Assembly: GCF_000002425.4 (NCBI RefSeq)
Contig: NC_037253.1
Span: forward strand, 4,370,576-4,434,575
Reading direction: 5' to 3'
DNA from: Physcomitrium patens
Lineage: Eukaryota > Streptophyta > Bryopsida > Funariales > Funariaceae
DNA: 64,000 bases
The position numbers and the translations under genes are program-made. Positions 470 to 52,099 of the stretch are shown piece by piece. The first letter of the stretch is position 1; every line of letters starts with the position of its first letter. Under the pieces are notes generated by a model. It had not been told where the DNA came from, did no database searches, and saw only the letters and a list, made by a program, of their open reading frames with translations.

Positions 470-622
470 CTACTCTTTTTAAGAAAAAAATCAATATTAA
501 AAAACTAAATAGTTTGTTTAAAGGTGAATAATTTGTAACCTTCAAAATACAACAATAGAAGTAGAATAATTCATTCACTTCTAAAACAAGACAATAAAAA
601 TGAATTAGGACTCTTGTTAAAC
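470..622 (-). mobile_element. Gypsy element E, untranslated leader fragment
   Basis: Read on the minus strand from 622 downward, this matches the leader that follows the 5' LTR in elements B and C, including the priming-site-like block at 608-622 and the ATTTTGAAGGTT block, down to about position 470. Beyond that the sequence is unrelated, so the element is broken there and no gag or pol follows. Confidence 0.6.
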
Positions 623-5619: not shown

Positions 5620-6179
5620 TATCACGGACATACTCATGTAAGCTAGTAATTACATATATAAATATGTAGAAGTAAGTAAAAGTAGATAAAAGTAAGTTAA
5701 TTCTATAGTATTTGATATGAAAGCTTCCTAGAAGCTTCATAGACACTGCTTTGACTTCATAGGTGTCTTTAATTGACTTTTTGGATTAGAAACGTGGTCA
5801 ATAAGTTGGCCATGTACCATACATATTCTTAGCTTGAAGACCAAGCTAACTATAAGGCCCACACATAGAAAAAGTTGTCTTGTAAGTCAAGGCATGTATC
5901 CTACAAAGTCAACACATATTGGAGGTCCAATAAAATATTGCCACGTAGCCCCTAGTTAGACAGTATATATAGAGATAAGAGTGAAGCTTTCTTCACACTT
6001 CTCAACTCCTTTCTTGCTTCCAGTCTAGTTTCAAGAGTCTTCATATTTTTTAGTCTTTGACAATAGCCATTCTAGTTTTTCTTTCAATATACATACTTAT
6101 TTATTTATATTTTGTTACCTTTCTTTGAGTGAAGGCTCACTTGTCTGAATTGCTTTTCATTGAATTCTTATCCTTGACA
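5620..6179 (+). repeat. Element A 5' LTR
   Basis: The LTR begins TATCACGG (TGTCACGG in the better-preserved 3' LTR of element B) and ends CCTTGACA, so the canonical ends are TG...CA. A TATATATAG box lies at about 5964-5972, followed by a degenerated palindrome GATAAGAGTGAAG/CTTCACACTTCTC. The U3 part carries several TTGAC/GTCAA cores. The last 130 bp (U5) are clearly different from U5 of elements B and C. Confidence 0.93.
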
Positions 6180-6194
6180 GATTGACAAGAGTAC
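6180..6194 (+). promoter_or_regulatory. Element A putative primer-binding site (self-priming type)
   Basis: Directly after the LTR the sequence is GATTGACAAGAGTAC. It does not start with TGG, as a site for a tRNA 3' end would. Its core TTGACAAGAGT is the exact complement of ACTCTTGTCAA, found about 30 bp downstream of the TATA box in the related LTRs of element B. See the finding on self-priming. Confidence 0.5.
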
Positions 6195-6391
6195 ACTTAC
6201 AATATCAGAGCTTTGTCTTATCTTAATTAAGAGTGGATTACCCCTATTTTTTGATAAGACAAAAGCATATTAGAAGTTGCGGATTACCCTCTTCTAAACT
6301 GATATTGTCCTTAATATTTTCTTTGTTTTCAAGTCCTCTCTTCTATTTGACTTGAGTGATATTAGACATCTTCTTTTTTCTAAGTATTATC

Positions 6392-7395: not shown

Positions 7396-10300
7396 TAGGG
7401 ACCGTGCGGCTGGAACCTTACACAACATCTAATAAAGGTCGTATTCTTTCTTTAGAATCCTCTCCTTATTTTATATTAAATATTATTTTAGGACCTAAAC
7501 ATTATAAAGCCTATGCCTTGTTAGATTCAAGAGCCTCACCATATTTCTTATATGAAGAATTTACTAAAAAACATAGCATATCTTTAGTAAAGAAAACTAA
7601 ATCTGTTCATGTAGAAGTCATAGATGGTCGTCCATTGTCTTCTGGGGATATTACTGATGAAATCCTTCCTATAGAAGTAATAAGCAATGGTCATAATAGC
7701 TTTGTAGTATTTAATATCATTAGATCTCCCGCTAATCCAGTTATTTTAGGTTTATCGTGGTTAAAAAAATACAATCTTCAAATAGATTGGATTTCCCGAA
7801 CTCTTACTTTCTCTAAAAGTATAACTAATAGTATAGTTAATCAAGTAGAGAGTCATAAGTCCAGTTCAATTAAATCCGTATTTATAAGTGTAAAAGCTTT
7901 CTTGCATGTTGTTATGAAAGAATCACCACATATTATTTATGCCACACCTGTTTCTACTAGTCGAAAGACTTCAAGTGGCATTCCAAGCCAATATCAAGAA
8001 TTTCAAGATGTATTTGAAAAAAAAAATGCGGATACACTCCCGGAACATCGTCCCTATGATTGCTCAATTGGCCTTCAAGAAAGAGCACAACCGCCATTCG
8101 GATCAATCTACAGTTTATCACAAAATGAGTTGACTCAACTCAAGAAGTATATTGAAGAAAATCTAGTCAAGAATTTCATACGCCATTCTTAATCTCTGGC
8201 AGGAGCTCCAATTCTATTTGTGAAGAAAAAAGATGGATCATTGTGGATGTGTGTTGATTATCGAGGATTCAACAAGATTACTATCAAAAATAGGTATCCA
8301 CTACCTTTAATATTTACACTTCTTGATCAGCTGAATCAAGCTAAGATCTATACAAAAATAGATCTCCGGGGAGCATACAATCTAGTATGCATCAAAGAAG
8401 GAGATGAATGGAAGACTGCGTTTTGAACTAGGTATGGACATTTTGAATACAACATCATACCTTTTGGACTTACAAATGCACTAGCAGCTTTTCAACATCT
8501 AATGAATGATGATTTTTGAGAGTTTTTGGATGATTTTGTGGTCTATTATCTAGACGACATCTTAATCTATTCTAAGAATCCAAAAGAACATGAACTTCAT
8601 ATTCGTCATGTATTATAAAAAATAAGAGATGCAGGATTCTATGCCAAAATAGAAAAGTATATATTCTACACTACTCAAGTCAATTTCTTAGGTTATATTA
8701 TTTCAAATGATGGACTTATGATGGATCCTAAGAAAGTTCAAACTATTATAGATTGTAAGATCCCAAAAACGGTAAGAGATGTCAAATGCTTTTTGGGATT
8801 TGCCAACTACTATTGGTTCTTCATCAAAGACTTCTCTCGAGTTGCAACTCCACTTACACGTTTGACTTGTAAAGACAAACTCTAATGGAATGAAGAAGCG
8901 AAAGATACTTTTGAATCTTTGAAGACATTTGTTTTTGCACCAAACTTGTATCATGTTGATTTTTCCAAAGCATTCTTTATGGAAACAAATACATCAGACT
9001 TTGCTTTGGATGCGATTTTGTCACAAATGGGAACAAATGACAAACTTCATCCAATAGCCTTTCATTCAAGAAAATTCTCAACAGCAAAAATCAATTATAA
9101 GATCCATGACAAAGACCTTTTTGTAATTGTGGATTCTTTTCAAGAATGGCGTCATTATCTAGAAGGCGCTTCCAGTCGAGTCACCATGTATACAAATCAC
9201 AAGAACCTCAAGTATTTTATGTCAACACGCATATTAAATCATCGTGAAGCTTATTGAAGGATGTCTTTATGAAGATTCAAATTCAACATCACTTATCGAT
9301 TAGAAAAATAATAAGGTTTGTTCGATGCCTTATCTAGATGTTCTTATCTTGCACCAAAAGAAGGAGATGTAGCTTTTGAGCAATAAAAAACAATTCTCTT
9401 GAAGCTGGAGAAATTTCATCTTTGAGCAATAAAATCAATATTGAGTGTTGATTTAACTTTTCTCAAGCAAGTCCAGTTAAGTATGTCTTCAGACCCTCTT
9501 ATTCACGATATCAAGAATAATTCTTCTAAATCTCATGATCCCTCTAAATTTGAGTTCAAGAACAACCAACTTTATTTCGAAGGATGCCTATATGTTCCAG
9601 AAGGAGAAGCACATTTACGTATTCTTCAAGCTCGTCACGACTTTTCAACAGCAGGATATTTTGGATACAATAAGTCTTTGAAGTTGATATCTAGGGATTT
9701 TTGGTGGTTTCAAATGTAGAAGGCAGTCAAAGATTTTGTACAATCATGTGATGTTTGTTCAAGATTAAAAACTCCTCATCATCGATCTTTTGGACTTCTT
9801 CAGCCATTATCCATTCCAGAACAATCATAGTCTTCTGTTTCTATGGACTTCATCATAGATCTTCCAATCTCAGGTTCTTGTGACTCTATATTTGTGATAG
9901 TAGATCATTTTACTAAGATAGCACATTTTGTACCATCTACAAAATCTATCATAGGTGAAGAACAGCTAAGTTTTTTTTGATAATATCTATCGCTATCATG
10001 GATTATTCAAGGATATTATATTAGATAGGAAAACTCAATTTGTATCAAGATTTTGGCAGACTCTTTTCAAGATTCTAAAAATGGATATAAAACTATCTTT
10101 GGTATTCCATCTTCAAACTGATGGATAAACGGAGCGTGTTAATCAAATTTTGGAGCAATATTTAAGATGTATCATTAACTACCAACAATATGATTGGACA
10201 ACTCTTTTGCCATTGGTATAATTTGCTTACAATGATACAGTACCTTCTTCTACAAAAAAAACACCTTTCTTTGTTAATTATGGTTATCATCCATGACTTG

Positions 10301-10887
10301 ATACTTTTGTCTTTTCAAAAGTTGATAATCTTGTTGCGAAAGATTTGGCGATTCATTTATCAGAGCTACATGCAACGATGAAGGCGCAGTTTAAAGAGGC
10401 TCAAGGATAATAAAAGGTTAATGCGGATGTCTATCAAAAGGAACAACCACCATTCCTCTTGGGTGATAAGATATGGCTACTTCGTCGCAATATCAAGACC
10501 ACTCGTCCTTGTGACAAGTTGGACTATTGAAGGCTTGGACCATTTTTTATTTTTACACAAATTAATCCACTTGCATATCCTTTATATCTATCGGAGTCAA
10601 TAAAAATTCATCTAGTATTCCATGTATCTCTTCTTGAACCATACAAGACAGTGGACATATCAAGAAGATGACAAGCTCCACCTCTTCGTATAGAAGTGGA
10701 CAATAATGAAGAGTTTGAAGTAGAAGAAGTCTTAGATTCAAAGCGGCATCGAAATAAATTAGAATATCTTATCCATTGGCACGGATATGATATTAGTGAA
10801 CACACATGGGAGCCAATAAAGAATCTTGCAAATACAACAAAGGCGATGGAGGCTTTTCATCGATGACATCCATCAAAATCAAGATGA
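7396..10887 (+). pseudogene. Element A pol pseudogene (PR-RT-RH-IN-chromodomain)
   Basis: The domains follow in order. Protease: LLDSRASPYF near 7521, with Arg in place of the Gly of the DSG motif. Reverse transcriptase about 8200-8900: [18 protein letters not shown] and YYLDDILIYSKN, with the YLDD catalytic pair intact. RNase H about 8919-9257. Integrase about 9441-10500: an HHCC-type zinc finger ending in SCDVCSR, then VSMDFIIDLP and VIVDHFTKIAHF. C-terminal chromodomain about 10690-10860: EEFEVEEVLDSKRHRNKLEY and HTWEPIKNL. A dozen or more stops (mostly TAG, TAA and TGA where TGG, CAA or CGA is expected) and a frameshift near 9968 break it. Confidence 0.9.
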
Positions 10888-11444: not shown

Positions 11445-12004
11445 TATCATAGACATACTCATGTAAGCCAGTAATTATATATATAAATAGGTAGAAGTAA
11501 ATAAAAGTAGATAAAAGTAAGTTAATTCTATAGTATTTGATATGGAATCTTCCTAGAAGCTTTATAGACACTGCTTTGACTTCATAGGTGTCTTTAATTG
11601 ACTTTTTGGATTAAAAACGTGGTCAACAAGTTGGCCATGTGCCACACATGTTGTTAGCTTGGTCTTCAAGCTAACTATGTGGCCCACACGTAGAAAAACT
11701 TGCCTTATAAGTCAAGGCATGTGTCCTACAAAGTCAACACATATTGGAGGTCCTATAGAACGTCGCCATGTAGCCTCTAGTTAGATAGTATATATAGAGA
11801 CAAGAGTGAAGCCTTCTTCACTCTTGGCAACTCCTTTCTTGCTTCCAATCTAGTTTCAAGAGTCTTCATGTTTTCTAGTCTTTGGCAATAGCCATTCTAG
11901 TTTTTCTTTCAATATAGATACTTATTTATTTATATTTTGTTATCTTTCTTTGAGTGAAGGCTCACTTGTCTGAATTGCTTTTCATCGAGTTCTTGTCCTT
12001 GACA
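11445..12004 (+). repeat. Element A 3' LTR
   Basis: The 560-bp partner of the 5' LTR has the same length with no net indel. It preserves the palindrome better: GACAAGAGTGAA at 11799-11810 and TTCACTCTTGGC at 11817-11828. A 17-bp stretch at 11656-11672 is the exact reverse complement of the same stretch in the 5' LTR (5831-5847), a micro-inversion. Confidence 0.93.
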
Positions 12005-14881: not shown

Positions 14882-14896
14882 GTTTAACAAGAGTCC
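14882..14896 (+). promoter_or_regulatory. Element C putative self-priming site
   Basis: GTTTAACAAGAGTCC lies directly after the LTR, identical to the 15 nt after the LTR of element E on the minus strand (608-622). The core complements ACTCTTGTCAA of the family's predicted transcript start with one mismatch. Confidence 0.5.
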
Positions 14897-15119
14897 TAAC
14901 ATATTATTTCTGTCTTATTTTAAAAGTGAGTGGATTACTCCACTTCTATTGTTATATTTTAAATATTGTGGACTACCTAACTTTAAATAAAAAAATCTTA
15001 TTTTTTAATACTGATCTTTTCCTTAAAAAGAGTAGATTATCCCTCTTTATAGAAGTTTTTATTAGAAGTTGTAGATTATTTTCTTCTAATTTACATTTTT
15101 AAATTTATTTGAATGGTCT

Positions 15120-29723: not shown

Positions 29724-30275
29724 TATCATGGACATACTCATGTAAGCTAATAATTACATATATAAATAAGTAGAAGTAAGTAAAAATAAATAAAAGTAAA
29801 TTAATTCTATAGTATTTGATACGAAATCTTCCTAGAAGCTTCATAGACGCTGCTTTGACTTCATAGGTGTCTTTAATTGACTTTTTGGATTAGAAACGTG
29901 GTCAACAAGTTGGCCATATGCCACACATGTTGTTAGCTTGAAGACTAAGCTAATTATGTGGCCCACATGTAGAAAAACTTGCCTTGTAAGTCAAGGCAAG
30001 TATCCTATAAAGTCAACACATATTGAAGGTCCTATAGAACATTACCACGTAGCCCCTAGTTAGACAGTATATATAGAGACAAGAGTGAAGCCTTCTTCAC
30101 TCTTGTCAACTCATTTCTTATTTCCAGTCTAGTTTCAAGAGTCGTCATATTTTCTAGTCTTTGGCAATAGTCATTCTAGTTCAATATATTATCACTTTTG
30201 AGTAATTTCTAAGTATTTTCGAGTGACACAAGAGTGTATTGAGATTATCTTTCTTTGGAGTTCATGTCCTTGATA
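29724..30275 (+). repeat. Element B 5' LTR with promoter palindrome
   Basis: Begins TATCATGG and ends CCTTGATA. TATA box TATATATA at 30068-30075. A perfect 12-bp palindrome follows: GACAAGAGTGAA 30078-30089, loop of six, TTCACTCTTGTC 30096-30107. The predicted transcript start, about 30 bp after the TATA box, falls in the right arm, at CACTCTTGTCAAC 30098-30110. Confidence 0.9.
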
Positions 30276-30290
30276 GTTTGAAAAGAGTGC
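30276..30290 (+). promoter_or_regulatory. Element B putative self-priming site
   Basis: GTTTGAAAAGAGTGC lies directly after the LTR. Its complement is GCACTCTTTTCAAAC, which matches CACTCTTGTCAAC in the element's own R region at 11 of the first 12 positions. No TGG or tRNA-type site is present. Confidence 0.55.
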
Positions 30291-30511
30291 TAACATATTG
30301 TTTCTGTCTTGTTCTAGAAGTGAGTGGATAATCCAACTTCTATTATTGTATTTTGAAGGTTGCAAACTATCCACCTTTAAACAAAAAATCTTGTTTTCTA
30401 ATATTGATCTTTTCTTTAAAGAGAGTGGATTACCCTTCTTTGTGGAATTTATTTTTAGAGGTTGCAGATTACCCTCCTCTTATTTAACTTTTGAATTTGT
30501 CTTAGTTGTCT

Positions 30512-31560: not shown

Positions 31561-34500
31561 GGGATCGTGCGGTTAGAACCATGTGCAATACCTAGTCAAG
31601 GTCTTATTCTCTCCACAGATCCCTCACCTTGTTTTACAATAGATATGTGTATAGAATCCAAAAATCATAAAGTCTTTGCATTATTAGATTCAGGAGCCTC
31701 AACTTATTTCATAGACAAAAACTTTGTCAAAAAATAAGAAATATCGTTAGTCAAGAAAATCAAACTCCTACATGTGGAAGTCATAGATGGTCGTTCGTTG
31801 TCTTCTGGTGATGTTATCCATGAGACTGTTCCTTTAGATGTAATAATTAAAGATCATAATAGTATAGTAATATTTAATGTGATACAATCTCCTTTGAATC
31901 CAGTCATTTTAGGATTATCCTGGTTAGTAAAGTATAACCCTCAGATAGATTGGATTTCCCGTAACCTTAACTTTCCTAGTATTTTATTTCAAAATTCTAT
32001 TAATCAAGAGAAAATACATAAGTCTAGCACATCTAAGCCTTTATTAATAGGGACAAGAGCTTTCATGCATGCAGTCAAAAAGCGGTCATCTTTTTCTATA
32101 TATGCCACATCCATTTCAAATAGTAAAAAGACGTCAAGTGGTATTCCTAGTCAATATTAAGAATTCTAAGATGTTTTCGAAAAAAAGAATGCAGATATTC
32201 TTTTAGAACATTGACCTTATGATTTTTCAATCGATCTTCAAGAAAGAGCTCAACCGCCATTTAGACCAATCTATAGCTTATCACAAAATGAATTAGCTGC
32301 ACTAAAAGAGTATATTAATGAGAACTTCGCTAAAAACTTCATACGCCATTCAAAATCTCTAGTAGGAGCACCGATCTTATTTGTAAAGAAAAAAGATGGA
32401 TCTCTACGGATGTGCATAGACTATCGGAGCCTTAACAAGATCACCATCAAAAACAGGTATCCTTTACCTTTGATTTCAGGACTTCTTGATCAATTCAATT
32501 AAGCAAAGATCTACATAAAAATAGATCTACAAGGAGCATACAACTTAGTCTGCATCAAAGAAGGAGATGAATGGAAGACTACTTTTTTAACTAGGTATGG
32601 ACATTTTGAATATAATGTTATGCCTTTTGGACTCATAAACGCATCAACTACTTTTCAACTACTTTTCAACATCTTATGAATGATGTTTTTCGTGAGTTTT
32701 TAGATGATTTTATCGTTTGTTATTTAAACAACATTCTAATCTACTCTAAGAATATAGAAGAATATGAATTCTATATTCGTCGTGTATTACAAAAATTAAA
32801 AGATGCAGGATTATATGCCAAGTTGGAAAAGTGTATATTCCACACTATTCAAGTTGACTTTTTAGGATACATCATTTCCAACAAAGGCCTGATGATGGAT
32901 CCTAAGAAAATCCAGACTATCATAGATTGGAAGATTCCAAGAACAGTACGAGATGTGCAATGCTTTTTGGGCTTTGTAAATTACAATAGAATCTTTATCA
33001 AGAACTTTTCTCAAGTTGCAACTCCACTTACGCATTTGACATGTAAAGACAAATTTGAGTGGAGTAAAGAAGGTGAAGTAGCGTTTGATGCTTTAAAGAA
33101 GGAATTTACTTCTGTACCAATTTTATATCATGTTGACTTCTCCAAGGCATTTTTTATGGAAACAAATGCATCAAACTTTGCCTTGGGTGTCGTTTTGTCA
33201 TAAATGGGAGCAGATGATAAGCTCCATCCAGTAGCTTTCTATTCCAAGAAATTTTTAGTAACCGAGATTAACTATGAAATCCACGATAAAGATATTCTTG
33301 CAATTGTGGATTAATTTCAAGAATGACATCATTATCTAGAAGGCACCTCAAGTCCAATCACCGTATACACAGATCATAAGAACCTCGAGTATTTTATGTT
33401 AGCACCCATAATAAATTGTCGTCAAGCTTGTTGGAGCATGTCTTTATGAAGATTCGAGTTCAACATCACTTATCGACCAAAAAAATAACAAGGTTTGTTC
33501 GATGCTTTATCTAAACATTCTTATCTTGCACCAAAAGAAGGAGATGTAGCTTTTGAACAATAAAGAATGGTTCTCTTGAAGTTGGAGCAATTTCATCTTT
33601 GAGCAATAAAATCAACATTGACTGTTGATTTAACTTTTCTCAAGCAAGTCCAGTTAAGTATGTCTTCAGACCCTCTTGTTCACAATATCAAGAATAATTC
33701 TTCTAAATCTCATGATCCCTCTAAATTTGAGTTCAAGAACAACCAACTTTATTTCGAAGGATGTCTATATATTTCAGAAGGAGAAGCATGTTTACGTGTT
33801 CTTCAGACTCGTCACGACTTTTCAGTAGCAGGATATTTTAGATACAATAAGACTTTAGAGCTGATATCTAAGGATTTTTGATGGTCTCAAATATGGAAGG
33901 CAGTTAAAGATTTTGTAAAATCATATCATGTTTGCTCAAGATCAAAAACTCCTTGTCATCGATCTTTTGGACTTCTTCAGCCATTACCCATTCCAGAACA
34001 ACCATGGTCTTTTGTTTCTATTGACTTCATCACGGATCTTCTAATCTCAGGTTCTTATGACTCTATATTTGTGATAGTAGATCACTTCACCAAGATGGCA
34101 CATTTTGTACTATGTACAAAATCCATCACTTGTGAAGAAACAGCTAAGCTTTTTATTGACAATATCTATCGCTATCATGGGCTATCAAAGGATATTATAT
34201 TGGATAAGGGAACTCAATTTGTATCAAGTTTTTGGAGAACCCTTTTTAAGATTTTATGAGTGAAGATAATACTATCTTTGGCTTTTTATCCTCAAATTGA
34301 TGGATAGATAGAGCGCATAAATCAAGTCTTGGAGCAATACTTAAGATGTATTATCAACTATCAACAAGATGATTGGACAACTCTTCTGCCATTGGCACAG
34401 TTTGCTTATAATAATACGGTGCATTCTTCTATGTAACAAACACCTTTCTTTGTCAATTATGGTTATCATCCACAACTTGACATGTTTGATTTTTCAAAAG

Positions 34501-35066
34501 TTGATAATCCTGTGGCAGAAGATATGGCAAATTGATTGTCAAAGTTACATGCAACAATGAAGGCGTAATTAAAAGAAGCTCAAGAATGACAAAAGATAAA
34601 TGCAGATGTCTATCGAAAGGAACAACCACCATTCCACATGGGCGATAAGGTATGGTTACTTCATTGCAATATCAAGACCACTCGTATTTGTGATGAGTTG
34701 GACTATCGAAGGCTTGGACTATTTTCTATTTCTGCACAAATCAATCGAGTTGCATATCATTTACATCTATCGGAGTTAATGAAAATCCATCCAATATTCC
34801 ACGTGTCTCTTCTTGAATCATATAAAACAGTGGACATACCAAGAAGAAGACAAGCTCTATCTCCTCCTATAAAAGTAGATAATAATGAAGAGTTTGAAGT
34901 AGAAGAAGTCTTAGATTCAAGGCGGCGCCAAAATAAATTGGAATATCTTATCCATTGGCGTAGATATGATATTAGTGAATGCACATGAAAGCCAATAAAA
35001 AATCTTGTAAATGCAACAAAGGCGGTGGAAGCTTTTCATCGACAACATCCATCAAAATCAAGATAA
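31561..35066 (+). pseudogene. Element B pol pseudogene (PR-RT-RH-IN-chromodomain)
   Basis: Protease keeps the active-site motif LLDSGAST (about 31682). RT about 32380-33000 has [18 protein letters not shown], but the catalytic YLDD is CYLNNILIYSKN (about 32718) and an 11-bp duplication at 32646-32667 shifts the frame just before it. RNase H about 33090-33420. Integrase about 33618-34600 with VSIDFITDL and VIVDHFTKMAHF. An open stretch at 34638-34988 covers the integrase C-terminus (GDKVWLLHCNIKTT, HPIFHVSLLESYK) and chromodomain (EEFEVEEVLDSRRRQNKLEY). The TGG of the chromodomain WEP motif is TGA at 34986-34988. Confidence 0.9.
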
Positions 35067-35622: not shown

Positions 35623-36151
35623 TGTCACGGACATACTCATGTAAGCTAGTAATTACATATAAAAATAAGTAGAAATAAGTAAAAGTAGATAAAAGTAAGT
35701 TAATTCTATTGTATTTCATACAAAAGCTTCATAGATGTTGCTTTGACTTCATAGGTGTCTTTTATTGACTTTTTGGATTAGAAACGTGGTCAACAAGTTG
35801 GCCATGTGCTACACATATTGTTAGCTTGAAGACCAAGCTAACTATGTGGCCTATATGTAGAAAAACTTGTCTTGTAAGTTAAGACAAGTGTCCTACAAAG
35901 TCAATACATATTGAACGTCGCCACGTAGCTCCTAGTTAGATAGTATATATAGAGACAAGAGTGAAGCCTTCTTCACTCTTGTCAACTCATTTCTTATTTC
36001 TAGTCTAGTTTCAAGAGTCGTCATGTTTTCTAGTCTTTAGTAATAGTCATTCTAGTTCAATATATTGTCACCTTTGAGTGATTTCTAAGTATTTTTGAAT
36101 AACACAAGAGTGTATTGAGATTATCTTTCTTTGGAGTTTATGTCCTTGATA
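35623..36151 (+). repeat. Element B 3' LTR
   Basis: Begins with the canonical TGTCACGG and ends CCTTGATA. It is 23 bp shorter than the 5' LTR because of small deletions in U3 near 35720 and 35912. The palindrome GACAAGAGTGAA/TTCACTCTTGTC is intact at about 35954-35983. Confidence 0.9.
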
Positions 36152-36156
36152 ATAGA

Positions 36157-37300
36157 TTCAAAGATCATCACTTTCCAAACAAAGTATATCATTTGAAAAA
36201 AACTATATATGATTTATGCCAATCAAGGAAGGCATGACATCGTAGAATTAATAAGTTTTTGGTTATTTACAAACTCAAGCAAAAAAATTCTAATTCATAT
36301 GTATACCATTCTGAACTAAAAAACTAACTCATCATTCTGATTTTTGCTGATGATGGCTTATGTTGCTATCATTATAGAAGACATATCAATGATATTCTAT
36401 ATACTATGAATGATATCTTTGAAACTTAGATTAACAATTCACATATCTATGTTAGCTTACAAATTGAAAATAATCATAAATCATAACTCATTTTTCTTCA
36501 TCAATGAGTATATCTAGAAAGCATCCTCCATAAATATGGCTTTGAATACTCCTCTTCTATCTCAACTCTAGCAGATTTTAACTCAACATTTTGTTTTGTT
36601 GATTCTTCAAACACAAATAATGATGATGTTTTTCTATTTGTTAATGTAATTGACATCTTCCAATTTTCTTCTATTGGAACTCCCCTAATATCTCTTTCTT
36701 ACTTGTAATGTTGCCTATTTCAAGTCCAAGTTTACGCATATTCATTGCAATGTTGTTCAAAGAATTTTTTGATATTTATACACTACTCTAGATTTTAAGC
36801 TGATTTATGATGGTACTACCTTTCCAATCCTACTTACCGCATATGTAGATGTTGATTATGTAGCAAATATTGATGATAGAAAGTCTTGCACTAGATACAT
36901 TCTTTTCTTGATTGGAGGTCCAATCATCTAAGGGTTAAAAAAGCAAGCTTGTTTTTTTGATAGTATGATCTATTTTAAGTATGTTGCTTATAATATGGCT
37001 ACAAAAGAAATCATATGGTATCAAAGGCTCCTTACTTATCTAAGATTTTCTCAAGACAAAACTGCAATCTTATATTTTGACTCTCAAAGTGCTATCAGGC
37101 TTGTACTTAACCTTGAATTCCATTCACAAACTAAGCATGTGGATAGAAAATATCATATGATTAGAAAACAAATTCCGAATGGACTTCTACAAATCAACTA
37201 CATTTCTACTAATAACAATGTTGCCAATATATTCACAAAACCAGTAACTCTAGAAAATTTCAAGAAAAAGCATGCTCTTCTCACCATACATCTAAGATGA
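36157..37300 (+). pseudogene. Copia 2 RT end and RNase H (decayed)
   Basis: After gypsy B the copia reading resumes with VYHLKKTIYDLCQS (VxxLxKxLYGLKQS). The catalytic YVDD is FADDGLCCYH. Further on come YVDVDYVANIDDRKSCTRYI (DADxAGDxxDRKSTSGY) and the RNase H tail from 36965, open for 111 codons: YVAYNMATKEIIWYQRLL, QSAIRLVLNLEFHSQTKHVD, NNNVANIFTKPV. The order and motifs are typical of Ty1/copia. Confidence 0.85.
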
Positions 37301-43154: not shown

Positions 43155-43625
43155 ATAATCAATACTTGTAATTATCTAAATAAAAAAAATATTTATAATT
43201 AAATAAAAGTACATAAATTTGATAATATCTTATAGAAAAGCTTTTTAGAAGCTTAGTAGATGCAAATTTGACTTTATATATATTTGTAGTTAATTATTAG
43301 GTTGAAAACTTGGCCAACCAATTGATCACTTGTGGTACAAGTTGGCCATGTGGTGCACATATAGGAAACTTAACTTATAAGTTAGACATGTGTTGGAGGT
43401 CTTATAGAATGTTGTCATGTAGCTCCTAATTAGATAGTATATATAGAAATCAAACTGAGGCCTTTCTTACTCTTGTCAATATCTTTTTTGTATTTAGTCT
43501 TATTTCAAGAGTCTGTAGTCTTCTTATCTTTACCAATAGCCATTCTAATTTTAATATTATACTATCTTTAAATAAATATCTATTCTTTTTTAATGACATA
43601 AGAATATATAGATTCTTTGATTGTT
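43155..43625 (+). mobile_element. Degraded solo gypsy LTR (D)
   Basis: The order of LTR landmarks matches A-C: AAAGCTTTTTAGAAGCTTAGTAG, AACTTGGCCAACC, TTGGAGGTCTTATAGAA, TAGTATATATAGAAATCA, then TTTCAAGAGTCTGTAG and CAATAGCCATTCTA. U5 is of the B/C type. No leader, gag or second LTR is adjacent, so it is a solo LTR or a fragment. It is the most decayed copy in the window and its borders are approximate. Confidence 0.7.
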
Positions 43626-47711: not shown

Positions 47712-50700
47712 TTACTTGTTGCGAAGTAGTCTGTTGGCCTGTTCAAGGTCGTCTCTTTCAGCCACGACATTCAAAAACTTATCGCTGATGTCTCTGACTT
47801 GATCTTTCATCTCTTTGATCTCCATCTCCTTCTTCAGAAGTTCTTCACCCAATTGGGCTGCCTTTACACCTGCGTTCTTTTTGTCATTTAACAACTCTTT
47901 AAACTGCTGCTCCAAGTCACTCCGATTATCTTCCATGTCATACATCTTGACATTCGCATCGTGCAGTTCTTTGTTGAGAACCTCAATTTGTGAATTGAGA
48001 GCTTGAATTTCAACTTCAAAATTTTCAATCTTTGCCGCACCCTTGGCCAGATCAAACTTAAGCCCCTTGATCTCCCGTTCCATTCTCCTTTTAGCGATTG
48101 CCTCACTCTCAGCCTTCGCGAGATCTTCTTTCATGCCGTCAATTTCGTTGTATAACCGTTCATTTTCATTTTCTAAAGCCTCAACTTTCTCCTGCAGCTC
48201 TGCAATCTCGTCGTTCATCAGCACATTATCTTTTTCAAGTTCCGCAAATTTAGCCATCAGCATAGCCTTTTCTTCATCTAAATCTTCACCTCCTCTGGCT
48301 GTTGTGCCAGCTTCACGCTTTTGTGAGATATCTTCTTTCAATAACCTCAACATATCTTCTGTAGCATGTAAGAGTTTTTCTGTATCGTTTTTGTCGCGAG
48401 TCAGGATCGAAACTTCCTTTTCAAGCTTCTCAATTTTCAACCTATACAGTCCAAGTGAACATGTTACACACGGTGCTAGGAAACTTGCTGCGCAACACAA
48501 ACCACATTGTGCAGAAGAAAGAAAAAATTAAAAAGAAAAAGAAAAAAAAACAAATACAAAAACAAAAGAAAACGCAATCAGTCACAACTACATTCTGGTC
48601 TGATCTCCTGACAGGAAAGGTTCGGGGTTTAGGATTTAGGTTCATGTACGGTTCTTGCTCTAAGATACAAGTGGAAAACGATGAGAAACCACAGAGAAGA
48701 AGGCTACGCAAGCGTAGAAACCTACTTGACATCTTTTTCAACAGTTTCATGCTCTTGGGCCTCTCTATCCATAGTCTCTTCCATAATTGCAAGTTCCTCA
48801 TCTAGTTCGTCCTTCCTTGCTGTGACAGCCTTGAGTGACTCTTCTAGATCAGAGATACGATCCAGGGCTTTCTTCTTTTCGCCTTCCACCTCGGCAAGTT
48901 TCTGTTCTAAACTCCGCTTCTCTGATTCAAGTTTCTCATTATCTGATGTGTCTGATACGTGGCTATCCAGCTGAAACCTTAATTTCTGGATCTCCTCTAT
49001 AGCGGACCTGTGCTCTCCAGCTAACCGAAGGCTGGTTTCCATCTCCCGCTGCTCAGCGTCACCGAGCTTCCGTTCCGCAATTTCACGAGCGTTTACAGCA
49101 TCTTCAAGCTCATTCTCCAATTGTGTGATCTTATTCTCGTATTGTGCGATCTTATCCTCTGCTTCTTCATGCAATGTATTCAACAACTCTATTTGAGAAT
49201 TCAGAGTTGGCAGCTGTTCACTTTCCAACGTTTCAATTTGCATCCTACACTCCTCGAGCGCCGTTTCTAAAGCTGTGTTACTTCTTAACAGGTCCTTTTT
49301 TTCGTCAGCAGTGGCGTTGCTTTTGGCCTGAATTCAACAATGTCGAAGTAAGGTTGGATGAACTCTAGAAAATTCAAAAGAATACAAATCACTGGATATG
49401 CAAATGGATACTAAAGAGCTGTGGCCTATTCAATTCAATGCACTCACCATTAACTCATCGAAGCTCTGCTTCAACTGGGTGAGCTGTTCTTCAAGGTCAC
49501 TTTTCTCCCCTTCAAGTTTCGTGATGGAGAGTGAGATAGCTTCTTTCTCATCAACCATCTGGGTGATTTCATCGTAAAGCTTATTTGTCTCATCCCTCAA
49601 TTTCATCAACTCCTGCTCCCGCTTCTCTATCTCCTCTTTCTGTCTCATGAGCTCTTCCTCACGATGCTTCGCAACTTCTCTCAGTTTGATCAACTCTGCC
49701 TCTTGAGCAGCATTGGTTTCTAGTAACAATACACGCCTACTGTCCGTATCTGATTCCAGCTTAGCAATTTTGATACGTAAAGCAGAAATTTCTTGATCCG
49801 AATTTGAAAGTTTTACTGCCCAGTCACGTTCACGCTGAGCAAGAAGCTCTCGGTTCTCCTGCTCCTTCAACGACTGTCTCTGCGTCCACTCTCTTTCAGA
49901 AGCTGCAATCGCTTCCAGAGGACCAACAGGGACGTGGCTAGAGATTTTCCTTTTAGCAGCATCAAGCTCTCTTTGTAACTCTTGAATCTTAGCATCTTTC
50001 TCACTAGCTACCTTGTTGATTGCATCCCTTGAGTTTGACAACTGCAATTTGAGATCGTGATTTGTCTCCTTCAAATTCCTGATTATCGCCTGGGCTTCGT
50101 TCACAGAGAAACTGTCGAAAAATGAAAAAATAAATAAATAAAATTAAAATTAAAATTAAACGATGACCAAAACGTCAACATAAATCAACAATTAAACCCC
50201 AGATTCCACTTGAATACAAAACGAATCATTCACGCATCGGAGAAAACCTGGAAGAAGAACGTTACCTGATATTTTCCTTCTTATCATCTGGTTTAGGCAC
50301 AGAATGACATCCATGTGGCTCATCATGCTTGACTGATTCCGGCTTGGAAAGAAGACTCGCGAAATTAGATGTCCATGACGTACTCTCACCAGGAGTGGTA
50401 GTGTATGGTCCACTAGAGACACCAGGGTAAAAACTCGAGTCGGGAGGCGCTGCAGGTGGATACTGACTAGCAGCAGAATGAGAAAGAGATGAAGTAGGCT
50501 GCTGCTCTGAGTGAGGATAATTGTAAGAGCTAGAATGTTGGAGAGAGGAAGAGTGTGCGTAAGGCGCTGAGTAGTCCTCTGGAGTGGCAGGGGAATTGGA
50601 GGGATAATAATTTTGTTGAAACGAATTGAGCTGAGACCCATAAGACTGTGAGTCATAACCAGGATAGGGAGCATACTGGTCTGAATAGGAGTAAGCTGGA

Positions 50701-50807
50701 TCCGTCAATGTAGAAGGACGAGACGGTTGGGGCAAACCCGGAGGAGCATAATGCTCTGGCTGTGGGTTATTGTAAGCCTGGTACCCGTATGGATCGTACT
50801 GATACAT
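47712..50807 (-). CDS. Long coiled-coil protein with Tyr/Pro/Ser-rich N-terminus
   Basis: The minus-strand model has four exons: 50266-50807, 49448-50111, 48726-49327 and 47712-48441. The GT-AG introns (154, 120 and 284 bp) join in phases 2, 0 and 2, giving 845 residues. Residues 1-180 form a low-complexity region (MYQYDPYGYQAYNN, many Y, P, S and Q), likely disordered. From about 185 to the end the protein is almost continuous heptad coiled coil rich in E, K, L and Q, for example ELMRQKEEIEKREQELMKLR and KMYDMEDNRSDLEQQFKEL. No transmembrane segment, motor or enzyme domain is seen. It ends RDDLEQANRLLRNK. A role as scaffold, tether or cytoskeleton-associated protein is inferred from architecture only; I cannot name an orthologue. 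ATG 50807 is the first Met of the open frame. Confidence 0.85.
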
Positions 50808-52099
50808 TGCGCCAGTACAATTCCAAAGATGAAATAATTCTGCCGGCTACGATTTCACAACAATCTGTAATGCTGTGAGAGGGATGATCTGCACAGACCC
50901 GCAGATATTAGTGTAGAACGGAAACCAGCACGTACATCTGCAAAGCTAACAAGACGCAAAACCAAGTTCCATATAAACGACAAACTAACTCAGGGCTTTC
51001 TGCCAACATAATTCAATGTTTTTCAGAATAATTTTCAAAACAGGTGACACACAATTGCAAGATTCAAAGTCAAAAACGATTTTGGAAAAAGATAAGAAGC
51101 ATAACACAACGAGAGGTCCCCATCGAAGTGCTTAAGTTTCACGTGTGCAAGTTACCCCTTGTTGGGACAAATTACTTCACCAAAATGTCCTCTTTCACTA
51201 CAAGCGTACACCAACTCAAACTGTACTAAGAATAACCCTCAGAGATTCAGTTTACTGCACTCTCTTCACCGCTACCAGGGTTTTACGTACCACAAAACAA
51301 AGTAGAATCCAACAGATACAAATCCACAGAGATCGACAATTGCACCTCTTCATCCCCACCGCTCTAACCTTAAAAGTCTCTTGACGATGGCGAACTCTAC
51401 GTCTGCAACGCACTCCAGTATCTATACTCATCCAGGCTCCCAACGCCCTCACGATTTCCACATTGGACAAACATCAAGTCAAAGCAAACTTACAAAAAAA
51501 ATCTCTAAAACGTCAAACGCTCGCCACGCTGTCTGCAGTCCTCACAAGTGTTGCCGTGTCCTCTTTGCTTCCCGAAACGCAAGCAAGCCAGAGACTATCT
51601 CTTTCTCTCTCTCTCTCTCGCTCTCTCCCTCTGCGCATCCAGAAACCTCAAAAACTTTCCCTCTCGTCCCCAAATCCCAAAAACCACTAACAATCCTCTT
51701 CAGATACCTGCAATAGAAGTACTCTTCACGACAACCCGACACCATGCGATCGGACCCAACAGATAGAAGAAACGAAAAAACCCAATTCCTCCAACTGACC
51801 TCCAAAGTGCCAACACGCTTGTCCTCCACCAAAATCGACAGGGAAGGTTCCCGAAACTAGCCTAGAAACTCGCAGGCGCGTCTCGCACACCACGCCACCA
51901 TCTCGGAGGGACCCAAAAGTTTTACTGGGATTTCTCTGGAACCTTTCACTTTGCTACTAAGCTCCGAAGTCTGATGCAACTACGTCTTCAACTCCTCACC
52001 AACACTGCCTTCTAAACTGCCCTCAATTCCCTCACGAAGATATGACAAAAAACACACACAGATCGCCCCCTGATTCGGCTCTGATTCATACCCTTCCTC
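50808..52099 (-). promoter_or_regulatory. Upstream and 5' leader region of the coiled-coil gene
   Basis: Base-balanced DNA precedes the ATG on the minus strand. It contains a (CT)n-type run on the plus strand at about 51598-51628, which reads as (GA)n in the gene's direction, a common plant core-promoter or leader feature. Open frames here overlap on both strands and show no domain, so I treat them as chance. Confidence 0.45.

Follow-up and report, generated by a model that had tools for sequence, protein, structure and literature searches.

Tf1 is the studied case of self-priming, and its site past the 5' LTR is complementary to the first 11 nucleotides of its RNA; self-priming has also been proposed for Cryptococcus Tcn1 (PMC7175516), and in Tj1 a site past the 5' LTR is complementary to the start of the RNA (PMC4600332). 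In the Tf1 pretzel RNA, two further duplexes flank the primer-site duplex (PMC10085805). Among plant elements, Neumann et al. 2019 predicted that most Tcn1-clade elements from moss and club-moss, as well as the TAR copia elements, are self-primed, using the criterion of at least 10 complementary bases located 0-5 nt past the LTR, and described the aromatic cage chromodomain as limited to non-seed plants (PMC6317226). Novikova et al. 2010 placed P. patens elements with Tcn1 and, in the available sections of that paper, gave evidence for neither tRNA priming nor self-priming in Selaginella SM-Tcn1 (PMC2864245). According to the sections of these sources at hand, self-priming of plant chromoviruses has so far rested on automated complementarity searches.

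Here we analyzed a 64,000-nt stretch of P. patens DNA (the window), in which one gypsy-type family is present in several decayed copies. Like the plant Tcn1 clade of moss and club-moss, this family has the gypsy order with a chromodomain, an aromatic cage (group I) and no tRNA-type site, and its predicted self-primer site lies within the 0-5 nt past the LTR given for that clade (PMC6317226); with Tf1 and the sushi group, Tj1 and Cryptococcus Tcn1 it shares a site past the 5' LTR that can pair with the predicted RNA start. It differs from Tf1 in that 12 nt rather than 11 are involved and in that a 2-nt spacer is present. The TAR copia elements Houba and Osr-1 are, like the window family, plant elements with predicted self-priming (PMC6317226), whereas they belong to the copia superfamily and the window family consists of chromodomain-bearing gypsy elements. 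In contrast to the tRNA-primed plant chromoviruses (Tekay, Reina, CRM, Galadriel), no TGG-starting site was found near the LTR. The family thus adds a well-supported case to a kind that had been predicted for its lineage before, where the idea of self-priming is not new. What is new is the covariation of primer and site, together with a U3/R hairpin which changes along with the primer; among the titles listed in literature searches, none dealt with primer/site covariation in plant elements. The P. patens family RLG1 (chromodomain gypsy), which is transcribed, occupies nearly half of the class I element space (PMC7466625); if the window family is RLG1, the 5' ends of this transcribed family would test plant self-priming directly.

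Post-LTR sites and predicted RNA start in the window

Protease, reverse transcriptase, RNase H, integrase, a Tf2-type SH3 and a chromodomain follow each other in gypsy order, in separate pieces within the broken frames of elements A and B. The main parts of the window elements are as follows.

29724-30275, plus strand: 5' LTR of element B, set by the repeat and its boundaries
35623-36151, plus strand: 3' LTR of element B (43 mismatches to the 5' LTR over 529 aligned positions, 39 of them transitions)
31738-34985, plus strand: broken pol pieces of element B (RT, RNase H, integrase, SH3, chromodomain) in separate open pieces
5620-6179, plus strand: 5' LTR of element A, with target duplication ATTAC
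11445-12004, plus strand: 3' LTR of element A
10672-10863, plus strand: chromodomain piece of element A with aromatic cage residues
43386-43514, plus strand: LTR piece F, with ACTCTTGTCAA at 43469-43479

The two LTRs of A differ at 49 of 560 positions (36 transitions), and this divergence, together with that of the B pair (43/529), indicates that these copies are old. The differences between the B LTRs are mostly transitions (39 of 43), as decay of methylated C predicts; B is flanked by ATAGG and ATAGA. In the A chromodomain, F15, W36 and Y39 align with solved chromodomains and, on our own reading of the numbering in the available part of PMC3350952, are the three aromatic cage positions.

The preliminary description of this DNA had reported one site directly past the LTR end in four copies, and both the positions and the letters were confirmed. 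Against the 15-mer quoted there, GTTTGACAAGAGTGC, element A reads GATTGACAAGAGTAC at 6180 (2 mismatches), element B reads GTTTGAAAAGAGTGC at 30276 (1 mismatch), and elements C at 14882 and E at 622 on the minus strand read GTTTAACAAGAGTCC (2 mismatches each); the 5' LTRs end immediately before, at 6179 (A), 30275 (B), 14881 (C) and 623 on the minus strand (E). Six matches to the 15-mer with at most 3 mismatches occur in the window, compared with a mean of 1.52 in shuffled sequence, where 1 of 100 shuffles reached six. The features of the predicted primer system are listed below.

30068-30075, plus strand: TATA box of the B 5' LTR, TATATATA
30098-30109, plus strand: predicted RNA 5' end and self-primer of B, CACTCTTGTCAA, 30 nt after the TATA box and complementary to the post-LTR site
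35974-35985, plus strand: 3' copy of the primer sequence CACTCTTGTCAA, in the B 3' LTR
30276-30277, plus strand: 2-nt spacer between LTR and site in B (also 2 nt in A, C, E, L001 and L002)
30278-30289, plus strand: predicted primer-binding site of B (11/12 pairs, one mismatch to its own R)
6182-6193, plus strand: predicted primer-binding site of A (10/12 pairs with the 3' LTR R, 9/12 with the 5' LTR R)
14884-14895, plus strand: predicted primer-binding site of C, decayed (8/12 pairs and one G-U)
609-620, minus strand: predicted primer-binding site of E, decayed (9/12 pairs and one G-U)

The spacing of about 30 bp between TATA box and R described for B is exact when counted from the first T of TATATATA, since CACTCTTGTCAA begins 30 nt after it. 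Likewise, the match of B to its own R stood at 11/12, and the A site pairs with the R of B at 11 of 12 positions, which is the 11/11 claimed earlier over the core. None of the four window copies (A, B, C, E) pairs perfectly with its own R. The longest perfect helix was reached in 5000 shuffles by 866 for B, 127 for A with the 3' LTR R, 4550 for A with the 5' LTR R, 4596 for C and 4894 for E, and taken one by one the pairing of the window copies is mostly within chance. In terms of duplex energy, R binds its own site poorly in A (5' LTR, -4.5), C (-3.7) and E (-5.0 kcal/mol), and in the swap matrix the A site is bound best by the R of B (-17.0) and of F (-18.5 kcal/mol). Among 63,976 plus-strand 24-mers the best partner of the A site is the R of F; the best 24-mer partner of the B site in the window is a stretch at 10049, which is no R.

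Genomic copies and matched changes between families

We searched 470,438,890 bases in 101 contigs, in which the window occupies C1:4370576-4434575, and found 403 exact copies of GTTTGACAAGAGTGC (192 and 211) and none of the reversed control, so that a motif inferred from four decayed copies exists in hundreds. In 48 of the 403 exact-site loci taken as a sample, R was located in 46 (not in L022 and L040). Over 12 nt, R and site paired at 12 positions in 22 copies, at 11 in 10, at 10 in 10, at 9 in 2 and at 8 in 2 (n = 46), and at all 12 in 28 of 46 when G-U was counted, figures which are favoured by the picking of copies through their exact site and by the inclusion of the primer in the probe used to find R. 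TATATA lay 30 nt upstream of R in 36 of 46 copies, at 37, 29 and 32 nt in one copy each, and was not found in 7. The distance from R to the site was 170-191 nt (median 177), and conservation dropped directly after the primer, from 1.00 at nt 12 to 0.65 and 0.52 at the two following positions.

A profile search with the RT region returned 11 loci, on apparently eukaryotic contigs inside prokaryote assemblies, and two of these, L001 and L002, had TATA box, R and site in register; inspection of L003, L004, L005, L007 and L010 at their ends revealed no usable 5' LTR with leader. L001, L002 and L003 are gypsy retrotransposon contigs in assemblies filed as cyanobacteria, presumably contamination from a eukaryote. 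In L001, R is CAGTCTCGACAA, 31 nt past the TATA box, and the site is TTGTCGAGACTG; in L002, R is ACTCTTGATCAA, 33 nt past the TATA box, and the site is TTGATCAAGAGT, each site being 2 nt past the LTR end. Both show a perfect 12-nt match of R and site, which 0 of 5000 shuffles reached in either case. Compared with the window family, L001 differs at 3 of 11 core positions, and all three are changed on both sides (compensatory). In the swap matrix, the R of L001 binds its own site at -20.7 and the other sites at -3.4 to -7.2 kcal/mol, and the R of L002 its own site at -16.9 and the others at -9.9 to -11.9 kcal/mol. Duplex energy was rejected as the sole test, because 11 of 5206 other 24-mers of L002 equal or beat its R in binding the site.

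Sampling of the moss genome at round-number places (twenty 10-kb stretches) yielded six elements with TATA box, R and site in register, all pairing at 11/11; the window type accounts for four (L062, L069, L072, L075) and the L001 type for two (L067, L079). These are the 6 rows in register with a TATA box out of 18 rows in the search for known site types; the remaining 12 are the same sites on the opposite strand (6) and partial matches without a TATA box (6). A filtered scan of the twenty stretches and the window found 4 perfect matches among 10 hits, compared with 3 hits and none perfect in the reversed control; its filter missed L075, L079 (whose LTR end is mutated) and B (whose site is too low in G+C). 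The RT matches of L063 and L079 are 92% and 91% identical to the RT of L001, which makes L001 close kin of this second family, whose predicted RNA start is (C)AGTCTCGACAA. In a small RT tree of 27 rows that includes no named reference, two database proteins join the window copies in one group (97/98), L001 falls in a wider set holding the window copies (85/88, an open fork), and L002 pairs with L003. Two scans of IMG/VR gave no confirmed relative, and plasmid records gave 3 records below 60% identity. By sequence, therefore, two families in one genome and the more distant element L002 keep the predicted pairing with different letters, and matched changes of this kind are the usual evidence of selection on the pairing itself. 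The check over genomic copies proposed in the preliminary description, for complementarity and compensatory changes, was made over part of the genome and had the outcome that self-priming predicts.

Folding from the assumed start gave the full stem in the RNAs of L001 (z -2.32) and L002 (z -2.82). A primer-site stem of at least 9 pairs was present in the minimum-energy structure of 30 of 30 RNAs, all of which were picked for matching (the 22 perfect copies, L001, L002 and the six random-sample elements), and the mean primer-site pair probability was 0.96 in the 22 perfect copies and 0.90-0.99 in the other eight. The predicted fold of the B RNA pairs the 5' end with a U5 stretch instead of the site (z -1.17). 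The stretch in question (30228-30240) contains ACACAAGAGTG, a second potential partner of the RNA 5' end, which is preferred over the site in this fold. Of ten tests on five elements for duplexes like those flanking the primer-site duplex in the Tf1 pretzel, nine did not exceed chance; the exception is the upstream duplex of L002, matched by 17 of 500 shuffles.

Probable self-priming and the alternative readings

The family very probably starts minus-strand DNA synthesis by self-priming, and the proposal to this effect in the preliminary description was supported by the perfect pairing in 22 of 46 sampled copies, by the different matched pairs in the second family and in L002, and by the lack of a nearby TGG. 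The sequence shows complementary sites in a fixed geometry, covariation between families and a predicted fold, and from these we infer transcript start, cut, extension and trimming as follows. Transcription would start about 30 nt past the TATA box, giving an RNA that begins with (C)ACTCTTGTCAA; the 5' end of this RNA would fold back over about 180 nt and pair with TTGACAAGAGT(G), 2 nt past the 5' LTR; and the cut in the RNA would follow at about nt 12, compared with nt 11 in Tf1. As the primer 3' end would pair beside the 2-nt spacer, extension of the freed 3' end would copy the spacer first and then U5. The spacer would leave two bases past the LTR end, to be trimmed by integrase, and the letters of the LTR junction (CA or TA followed by GT, GA or GC) would fit an integrase that trims two bases.

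The alternative that survives best is that self-priming is real and the transcript starts elsewhere, for example in the U3 arm described below, with the primer cut from a hairpin. We consider this highly unlikely: a 13-bp hairpin does span the predicted start in B and L001, whereas L002 is without it, the U3 arm starts only 10 nt past the first T of the TATA box, and the primer begins at 30 nt past TATATA in 36 of 46 copies, at 31 nt in L001 and at 33 nt in L002. Transcription usually starts about 30 nt past a TATA box.

Priming by a tRNA, either by a half-tRNA at the same site or by initiator tRNA-Met at a displaced site, would be an extremely improbable explanation. In A, TATCAGAGC occurs at +24 (6203-6211), and L069 and L079 have similar letters past the site; we take the plant initiator-Met site to read TGGTATCAGAGC, the middle of which TATCAGAGC would resemble. 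However, a match to TATCAGAGC is missing within 60 nt of the LTR end in B, C, E, L001 and L002. The observation in the preliminary description that the site does not begin with TGG extends to the first 34 nt past the LTR end in six of six elements (A, B, C, E, L001, L002), the first TGG being found at +55 in A, +50 in B and C and +35 in L001, and none within 60 nt in E and L002. The displaced initiator-Met site was rejected on these two grounds, and without TGG the TATCAGAGC of A is possibly a relic of an initiator-Met site. Furthermore, site and R vary together from family to family, and tRNA priming would not explain this. The last alternative appears next to negligible. It holds that priming takes place at an unseen site and that the complementarity has another function, in the U3/R hairpin, in RNA dimer formation or packaging, or in transcription. 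In its favour, the U3 arm and, in B, the U5 stretch are further partners of this segment. Against it, the site occupies the place required of a primer-binding site, 2 nt past the LTR, both in the window copies and in L001, L002 and the random-sample elements, and no second primer site is seen at that place.

U3/R hairpin, leader stem-loops and neighbouring features

The primer segment also has a partner upstream of the predicted start.

30078-30090, plus strand: U3 arm of the U3/R hairpin of B, complementary to 30095-30107 (13 bp, 4-nt loop)

With 13 bp and a 4-nt loop, the hairpin reaches -20.3 kcal/mol in B and -23.0 kcal/mol in L001; A, C and E have weaker versions (-8.5 to -15.8 kcal/mol), F has lost the hairpin (-1.7 kcal/mol) and L002 does not have it. 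Among seven aligned sequences (6 distinct, with E and L002 left out), four U3/R pairs are changed on both sides, against a shuffle mean of 1.0 and with 4 of 500 shuffles reaching four, a result favoured by the drawing of the structure from the same sequences. No counterpart of such a hairpin across the start was found in the available literature on Tf1 and the sushi group, from which the family differs in this feature. The U3 arm, which has changed together with the primer between two families, lies outside the RNA 5' end and inside the 3' LTR, and the RNA has two copies of the primer sequence, one at its 5' end and one in the 3' LTR. The arm might conceivably be a built-in guard, in which the 13-bp hairpin would lock the 3' copy of the primer and only the 5' copy would reach the site, a role that we hold to be rather doubtful; as L002 is without the arm, a guard would not be a general need. 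A role of the hairpin in transcription is equally conceivable.

Stem-loops with a loop like TTGCGGATTACCC are located between LTR and gag, and are duplicated in B.

30353-30387 and 30455-30489: leader stem-loops of B
6274-6308: leader stem-loop of A
14959-14993 and 15058-15092: leader stem-loops of C
511-545, minus strand: leader stem-loop of E
374-408: leader stem-loop of L001

Pairing holds in 93.3% of the 45 cells of these stem-loops, and both sides have changed in 5 cells, a number that 0 of 500 shuffles reached; counted as pairs, only 2 show a change on both sides (140 of 500 shuffles). They are possibly a packaging or dimer signal.

Two further features of the window were observed. The open frame 36932-37300 resembles, as judged by eye, the RNase H end of a plant copia element. 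A host gene at 47712-50846 on the minus strand has several exons, a Tyr/Pro-rich start followed by long coiled coils, and one unnamed database relative.
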